A stretch of DNA of 64,000 bases, taken from Sulfurimonas sp. (lineage in GTDB: Bacteria > Campylobacterota > Campylobacteria > Campylobacterales > Sulfurimonadaceae). The translations under genes were made by a program, and so were the position numbers. Below are positions 25,403 through 26,996 of the stretch, in pieces (within the stretch, counting starts at the first letter, position 1; every line of letters starts with the position of its first letter). Below the pieces are notes generated by a model. The model was not told the origin of the DNA. It made no database searches and was given only the letters and a program-made list of their open reading frames with translations. The stretch is taken from the NCBI RefSeq assembly GCF_028694605.1, contig NZ_JAQVKP010000001.1, positions 248,001-312,000 of the forward strand, in the 5' to 3' direction.

Positions 25403-26020
25403 TTAAACTCTAATGCTTTCCCAAAAAAACTCCACATGTTTTTCAAATTGAGTTGAGAGATTTGTGGTTGAGCCACTGTCAAATCTCAAAAGCGTAATCT
25501 GAAGCCTGATGTAGAAGAGGGTGGACAAAAACTCATAAGCAACCATCATGGGATCTGCTGAGCGAATTAGAGAGTTTTGCATCATTATAAAAAATGCTTC
25601 GGAGAGAACTTTTACATTTTCATTATGAAATTCACTCATAAACTGCTCTCTAAGCTCTCTATTTTGAAAAAGCTCTATCATAAGCAGCCTAAACATATTT
25701 TCGTTGTTTTTGTCAAATGTAAGAAGTTTGTACTGCATCGCAAATTTCTGTAAAAACAGTTTTCCCTTCAATGCTGATTCTTTTATATCGCTATTGTTTT
25801 GAGAGAATGGTGTTGTAAAAATCTCTTTTGCAACGCATAAAAAAATCTCCTCTTTATTTTGAAAATGATTATATAGCGCGCTCTCCCTAATTCCTACTTC
25901 CGAAGCAATTTTTCGCACGCTGGTAGCTTTAAAACCATGTTCTGAAAAGAGAGTAGATGCTGCTTTGAGTATCTTATCTTTAGTGTTTATTGTTTTTTTA
26001 TTTAGCGTATTTTCGGGCAT
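25403..26020 (-). CDS. TetR/AcrR-family transcriptional regulator
   Basis: 205 residues. The N-terminal helix-turn-helix is seen at about residues 15-60 (ILKAASTLFSEHGFKATSVR and IASEVGIRESALYNHFQNK), the usual TetR pattern. The helical C-terminal part would bind a ligand and dimerise, and is not recognisable further. Upstream of it lies an array of five operator-like palindromes, and a minus-strand TATAAT (26065-26070) falls between the first two. Autoregulation is therefore likely. The other divergent unit served by the array is the RNase P RNA gene. Confidence 0.93.
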   Translation of the reverse strand: MPENTLNKKTINTKDKILKAASTLFSEHGFKATSVRKIASEVGIRESALYNHFQNKEEIFLCVAKEIFTTPFSQNNSDIKESALKGKLFLQKFAMQYKLLTFDKNNENMFRLLMIELFQNRELREQFMSEFHNENVKVLSEAFFIMMQNSLIRSADPMMVAYEFLSTLFYIRLQITLLRFDSGSTTNLSTQFEKHVEFFWESIRV

Positions 26021-26040
26021 GTGGCAACCTTTTTATTGTA

Positions 26041-26181
26041 TGAACAAATGTTAATGTATTTATAATTATAAATGAACGGTTGTTAATTTAACCTTATATC
26101 AAGTGAACAGTTGTTCATCGGATTACAAGGTATAATGAACAATTGTTCACTTGTGAATAAAACCAGACGAACACTTGCTCA
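26041..26181. promoter_or_regulatory. array of five phased operator palindromes
   Basis: Five copies of a TGAACAnTTGTTCA-like palindrome start at 26041, 26073, 26104, 26136 and 26168, i.e. every 31-32 bases (three helix turns). The fourth is a perfect 14-mer (TGAACAATTGTTCA); the third has one central mismatch; the first, second and fifth are degenerate in one or both arms. Copies one and two flank the putative tetR -10 box on the minus strand. Copy four abuts a plus-strand TATAAT (26131-26136), and copy five covers the -35 position of the TACAAT in front of rnpB. The adjacent TetR protein is the obvious candidate ligand. Confidence 0.8.
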
Positions 26182-26188
26182 CCGTCAG

Positions 26189-26194
26189 TACAAT
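26189..26194 (+). promoter_or_regulatory. putative -10 box for rnpB
   Basis: TACAAT, 8 bases past the fifth operator palindrome and about 32 bases before the predicted 5' end of RNase P RNA. A second possible box, TATAAT, is at 26131-26136 within the array. Confidence 0.4.
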
Positions 26195-26225
26195 TTGAGT
26201 TAAAGGAATTTTTTTGTAAACTTCC

Positions 26226-26586
26226 GCAGGTACAACAGATAGCAACTTGAAATATTTCAAGAGGAAAGTCCGAGCTGCTCTAAGAAGGTGTTCCATTTAA
26301 CGAATGGCCGCAGTGATGCGAGGGAAAGTGCAACAGAGAGAAGACTTCCGCTTTAGCGGTAAAGGTGAAAGGGCGGTGTAAGAGACCACCAGTCTTTATA
26401 GCAATATAGAGAGCTTGTAAACCCAACATGGCAGCAAGAAACAGATGGTCAGCGTCTTAGGGAGCAAGTAAATGGTAATAATATGCTGTTTATTTGCTTA
26501 TGCTACTGTTTCGCTAGAGTTACTATGCAAATAGTAAAGTAGATTAATGCTATCAATACAAAACTCGGCTTACGTTGTGCCTAAAA
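26226..26586 (+). ncRNA. rnpB: RNase P RNA component, type A
   Basis: Catalytic RNA that trims tRNA 5' leaders. Seen in order: the P3 hairpin CTTGAAA-TA-TTTCAAG, the conserved GAGGAAAGTCCG (26261 onward), AGGGAAAGTGCAACAGAGAG, GTGAAAGGGCGGTGTAAGAG, AAACCCAACATGGCAGCAAG, and near the 3' end AAAACTCGGCTTAC. P1 pairs AGGTACAAC (26228-26236) with GTTGTGCCT (26574-26582). The ends are approximate to a few bases. It lies just downstream of the TetR-type operator array. Confidence 0.95.
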
Positions 26587-26786
26587 CACCATGTTGAAAT
26601 AATGCAAAATTTTATTTCTTGAATGAAATACTATTTAATATAAGATAGCTCATATGCAAAAAAAATTACCAAAAAGAAAGGCTTGAGGATAAACCTAGAA
26701 ATAGGCACTTTTATAGAAATTATTTTCAAGAGAATTTACATTATGTTAACCAATGTAAAAAATTATATTTCAAAGAGACAATTATC
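26587..26786 (+). other. 200-base gap after rnpB without a recognised gene
   Basis: AT-rich. Seen in it: a 10-codon ATG frame (MQKKLPKRKA, 26654-26686) with no good ribosome site; a small CCTA-GAAA-TAGG tetraloop hairpin (26694-26705); and an 8-bp stem TTTACATT / AATGTAAA (26735-26759) that might end the rnpB transcript but lacks a U-run. Nothing matches a known RNA family. Confidence 0.35.
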
Positions 26787-26996
26787 ATGAGTGATAGAAA
26801 ACAACAGCTTATCAATGACATCCAGAATTTGCTCAATAGCTATGATGGTGTCAATAAAACATCAATCAATCCAAATATTTTAGAGTTTATGGATGAAGAT
26901 ATGCTTATAAGCATTATCGATTCTCTTTTGCAGCAAAAAGAATATGCCAAAGAGCCTGATTTGGAGTGGTTGGAGAGATTTAAAAAATATAATTAA
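26787..26996 (+). CDS. small hypothetical protein, 69 aa
   Basis: Not recognised. ATG start with AAAGAGA about 7 bases upstream. The product is acidic and mostly helical, with no Cys and no membrane segment; it ends DLEWLERFKKYN. Codon use matches its neighbours. It is followed after 89 bases by a response regulator, so they may share a transcript. Confidence 0.6.
   Translation: MSDRKQQLINDIQNLLNSYDGVNKTSINPNILEFMDEDMLISIIDSLLQQKEYAKEPDLEWLERFKKYN

Follow-up and report, generated by a model that had tools for sequence, protein, structure and literature searches.

A helically phased palindrome array upstream of a tetR-family gene is linked to dif at the replication terminus in Campylobacterota

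Results

Phased palindromes upstream of tetR

In the window (the whole 64,000-nucleotide stretch of a Sulfurimonas sp. contig analysed here), five phased palindromes lie upstream of a gene for a TetR-family regulator (tetR, product TetR), overlap its promoter and are linked to a dif site (Table 1). In our assessment, TetR rather probably represses its own gene, the phased array being the tetR operator region and belonging to a conserved tetR-array-dif module located at the replication terminus.

Table 1 Features of the tetR-array-rnpB-dif locus (positions in the window).
Feature	Position	Strand	Remark
tetR, 205-aa TetR-family regulator	25403..26020	-	TetR_N 1.1e-16
O1, putative operator TGAACAAATGTTAA	26041..26054		Between tetR start codon and its -10; conserved
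Probable tetR -10, TATAAT	26065..26070	-	From alignment; near-invariant in genus
O2, putative operator TGAACGGTTGTTAA	26073..26086		Immediately upstream of tetR -10; placement equal in relatives
O3, putative operator TGAACAGTTGTTCA	26104..26117		Palindrome check
O4, putative operator TGAACAATTGTTCA	26136..26149		Palindrome check
O5, putative operator CGAACACTTGCTCA	26168..26181		Degenerate
Probable rnpB core promoter, TTAAAGG ... GTAAACT	26200..26222	+	Outside array; conserved whether or not tetR is present
rnpB, class A RNase P RNA	26227..26587	+	Between array and dif; RF00010, 216 bits
dif site TTTCAAGAGAATTTACATTATGTTAACC	26724..26751	+	One mismatch to published Sulfurimonas denitrificans dif

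Direct inspection of the window confirmed the starts of the five palindromes in the original prediction and their spacings of 32, 31, 32 and 32 bp. Taken singly, loose matches are unremarkable (23 in the window, ~35 in shuffles), but a chain of five at 31–33 bp occurred in none of 200 Markov shuffles of the window, where the longest chain was two. The form proposed for all five, TGAACAnTTGTTCA, is matched in full only at 26104 and 26136; the other three are variants (TGAACAAATGTTAA, TGAACGGTTGTTAA and CGAACACTTGCTCA), so that two palindromes are free of mismatches, two deviate at a single half-site base and the fifth deviates at two.

Among 93 Sulfurimonas-family loci with readable tetR and rnpB, a scan returned four palindromes in 85, five in six (some of the sites counted in five-site loci being chance matches) and three in two, with 275 of 283 operator spacings at 31 or 32 bp. 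The array was found wherever tetR occurs in this family (orthologues in 101 of 135 Sulfurimonas genomes), and the spacers between operators are not conserved in the genus alignment. G142 and G143, the nearest relatives, carry four operators rather than the five of the window, with a single gap of 43 bp; the difference is 21 bp, or two turns. Orthologous tetR genes (about 42–60 % identical) with three or four of the same palindromes upstream are also present in families f4, f18, f10 and f6 and in G038 (f3), with rnpB located elsewhere. Operator spacings there are 22/22/22 (f18), 22/31/33, 32/32 or 43/33 (f4), 32–33 (f10 and f3) and 43/43/43 (f6), corresponding to two, three or four helical turns with a best common period of 10.6 bp (six distinct values so well phased, p ~0.013 under uniform spacing). 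Rotational phase, not distance, is therefore what the array keeps across families, and the use of two-, three- and four-turn spacings in different families amounts to a natural experiment showing selection on phase. The helical phasing originally proposed and the conservation in close relatives are thus borne out; tetR and rnpB occur together in the 93 Sulfurimonas-family loci, but in other families tetR and its array are found without rnpB nearby.

TetR and the tetR promoter

TetR is, by sequence and predicted fold, an ordinary member of its family. An N-terminal TetR_N HTH domain (60.8 bits, cut-off 24) and a palindromic putative operator in its own promoter, the latter read from sequence only, place it among TetR/AcrR regulators, and the predicted model, of moderate confidence (pLDDT 72.6), aligns with TetR-family structures (best Z 11.8, 134 residues, rmsd 2.9), all of them generic matches. 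Across families, the C-terminal domain shows strong conservation (K98, D103, F110, E116, R124, F144 and MMQ, DP, EKH and FFW-like motifs), a pattern that would fit a fixed partner or ligand better than a drifting drug pocket. Two assemblies, G089 (C194, C85) and G173 (C81, C47), each carry two tetR orthologues, which could reflect contamination.

An operator directly precedes the tetR -10 in f1 and f4, while in f10 and f6 it occupies the space that separates the TTGACA-like hexamer of tetR from the TATAAT-like one. This is a clear autorepression layout in several lineages, in which TetR would be expected to repress its own promoter, and it supports the view of these palindromes as TetR-type operators with a role there. 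The array had been said to cover the promoters of both flanking genes; this applies to tetR, but the rnpB core promoter lies downstream of the last palindrome. In G038 (L075, 8410–8460) the tetR-proximal operator is centred in a long inverted repeat with arms of ~19 bp.

Linkage to dif and difH at the terminus

A dif site, missed in the first reading, lies 137 bp downstream of rnpB in the window; being 28 bp long, intergenic and near the GC-skew maximum (near 38–40 kb in the window), it is of XerCD type. In S. denitrificans the published dif (at 1,122,264; PMC2731167) is ~0.9 kb from the array. Cumulative GC skew peaks 12–13 kb beyond the window dif, an offset equal to that published for S. 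denitrificans. A small ORF of 69 aa (26787–26996), with no Pfam match, follows dif in the window.

Where at least 1.4 kb of sequence upstream of tetR was available (46 Sulfurimonas-family loci), dif was identified upstream of tetR in 36, always on the same side and in the same orientation (opposite orientation, 0), and about 1.4–6.2 kb away in four more; it was not found within the several kb examined in the other six, G002, G143, G098, G106, G110 and G025 (contig ends). XerCD-type dif lies at a variable distance, 0.3–1.1 kb, from the array, and in f10 and f6 it is likewise on the same side and in the same orientation. In the outgroups the exact 22-nt core of difH adjoins the array: in f4 and f18 difH, again always on the same side, is separated by 46–59 bp from the last operator and has a single orientation in 17 of 17 loci, and a XerH homologue (5jjv, E 1e-107) is encoded beside it where the contig is long enough, identifying a XerH/difH system. 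Apparent difH distances of 80–82 bp look like cases of an undetected degenerate last operator. No dif was found near the array of G038, and 366 kb of unrelated loci yielded no dif-like sites. In G127, where no tetR was detected, dif adjoins rnpB. Near the arrays of L066 (2749) and L058 (2811), dif-like sites whose right half is broken are possibly traces of dif-inserted elements. In all 21 complete genomes (f1, f4, f18 and f6) the locus is 0.45–0.50 of the chromosome from dnaA.

Linkage of this kind could reflect passive inheritance near the terminus, and the phased array might then do no more than subject tetR, and possibly distant targets, to a steep and tight negative feedback, beside a dif site whose proximity is inherited and functionless. 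Symmetric inversions leave genes at the terminus in place, the array is always attached to tetR, and several lineages have an operator within or next to the hexamers of the tetR promoter, all as expected if autoregulation were the whole explanation. However, the other neighbours have all changed between families while dif or difH has stayed within ~1 kb, and the tie spans two Xer systems with a fixed orientation for each type; we therefore consider autoregulation alone unlikely, although it deserves to be taken seriously, and favour the tetR-array-dif module.

Scattered palindromes

Isolated palindromes elsewhere lie mostly inside genes, and with nearly all of them intragenic no convincing local promoter regulon emerged. 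Those in ilvD, hprA-like and MoxR-like genes (L152–L191) are origin-biased and conserved in position in several species; the in-gene site of ilvD is exact in five of seven sequences, four of these five having been found by the pattern itself, which makes it weak as a sign of synonymous conservation. In nine complete Sulfurimonas chromosomes, 39 of 84 isolated palindromes lie within 0.1 of dnaA and two beyond 0.4, compared with 9/48 and 8/48, respectively, for a reversed control pattern, but the corresponding p-values (0.001–0.007) are too optimistic because orthologous repeats are not independent. The origin bias is thus a lead.

This lead would suit a nucleoid-occlusion-like factor of the SlmA or RefZ type, with TetR also binding the origin-near, in-gene sites and the terminus array serving its own control. 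RefZ and SlmA sequence models do match TetR over 120–150 residues, yet at scores far below their cut-offs (48.5 bits against 180 for RefZ, NCBIfam NF037937; 35.7 bits against 120 for SlmA, NCBIfam NF007015); neither protein is among the structure matches listed for the TetR model, which excludes nothing. Moreover, other families and G009, G011 and G073 show no clear genome-wide excess of palindromes, the bias draws on few sites, those in orthologous genes not being independent, and a terminus-located array runs contrary to the distribution of SlmA sites. Such a role appears improbable.

rnpB as a neighbour of the array

The purpose proposed in the original prediction, that the array puts rnpB under TetR as a repressor, or a variant with TetR as an activator at about -52, finds some encouragement in the position of the last operator, which in 81 of 93 loci lies between -63 and -56 relative to the rnpB 5′ end, near that of an UP element. 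In the window, O5 is at -59, as is the last operator in four-site arrays, with 46 bp between the edge of this palindrome and the RNA 5′ end. The rnpB core promoter (TTTAAAG...GTAnnAT) is nevertheless outside the array, directly before the RNA 5′ end, and is common to genomes whether or not they have tetR. Between the last operator and the rnpB -10 the distance drifts without phase (sd 3.4 bp, compared with 0.4 bp for operator spacing). Since this distance is unphased and tetR-less genomes keep the core promoter, the array is not retained for the control of rnpB, and arrays in other families do without rnpB altogether. As the main function of the array it was rejected, and the model as first proposed is quite improbable; a side effect of the array on rnpB in the Sulfurimonas lineage is possible.

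Among genomes with rnpB, G023, G063, G124, G127 and G111 have no detected tetR and no palindrome, and in the first four an oorC-like gene, elsewhere the flank of tetR on its other side, directly precedes rnpB. The tetR-less G123 has a lone palindrome at -40 of rnpB and a weaker one at -216, and G131 has two rnpB copies, one cut by a contig end and the other without a palindrome. On the best reading, the array belongs to tetR, not rnpB, and rnpB lies between array and dif by history.

Discussion

In the tetR-array-dif module as we picture it, TetR dimers, probably acting cooperatively, would occupy the three to five palindromes along a single face of the DNA helix, and TetR bound to the operator at the tetR promoter hexamers would repress tetR. 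The resulting nucleoprotein patch beside dif or difH would most likely have a task at the terminus, candidates being a structural aid to Xer recombination, control of its timing, or a coupling between terminus and division; rnpB is a neighbour that sits between array and dif in the Sulfurimonas family. The wider proposal, that several Campylobacterota families have a TetR-family protein which forms a phased nucleoprotein array next to dif, acts in dimer resolution, terminus organisation or division coupling under either Xer system and represses its own gene, is one we put forward tentatively, as plausible but somewhat more likely to fail than to hold in full.

A barrier to replication forks near dif, with autoregulation of the kind seen for tus and TerB, would account for the terminus location and the self-regulation layout, but the sites are palindromic and without polarity, unlike those of Tus/Ter and RTP/Ter, and number only three to five, making this very unlikely. 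That another protein, such as LexA, has its boxes in these palindromes is scarcely credible: their half-sites resemble the Gram-positive LexA box, GAAC-N4-GTTC, but indirect evidence speaks against it, as the array accompanies tetR from family to family and is missing where tetR is missing.

The titles and abstracts searched contained nothing linking rnpB or dif with TetR in this way, and we know of no MatP- or Tus-like terminus-bound factor in this bacterial group. If the link to dif is functional, TetR would be such a factor in Campylobacterota, and a transcription-factor fold would be in use at a chromosomal Xer site.

In HTH family, palindromic operator at its own promoter and divergent layout, the system resembles the TetR/AcrR autorepressors QacR, AcrR and DesT, but differs in having three to five operators on one helical face across families, a strongly conserved C-terminal domain and linkage to dif. 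Tus (tus-TerB) and MatP (MatP-matS) are likewise terminus-bound, and Tus is also autoregulated, as proposed for TetR; here, however, the protein family is another and the sites form a single clustered array. TetR-family proteins with position-marking sites, as in our candidate, have precedents in SlmA and in RefZ of Bacillus subtilis, whose binding sites mark chromosome position (PMC6657595), although TetR falls under the cut-offs of both families and its main site is the terminus array at its own gene. Closest to the proposed role at dif are the accessory sequences of cer and psi, where ArgR or ArcA acts with PepA at a Xer core site (PMC5357621): a transcription factor sits beside the core site, as TetR putatively would, the difference being that cer and psi are plasmid-borne and the dif site here is chromosomal.
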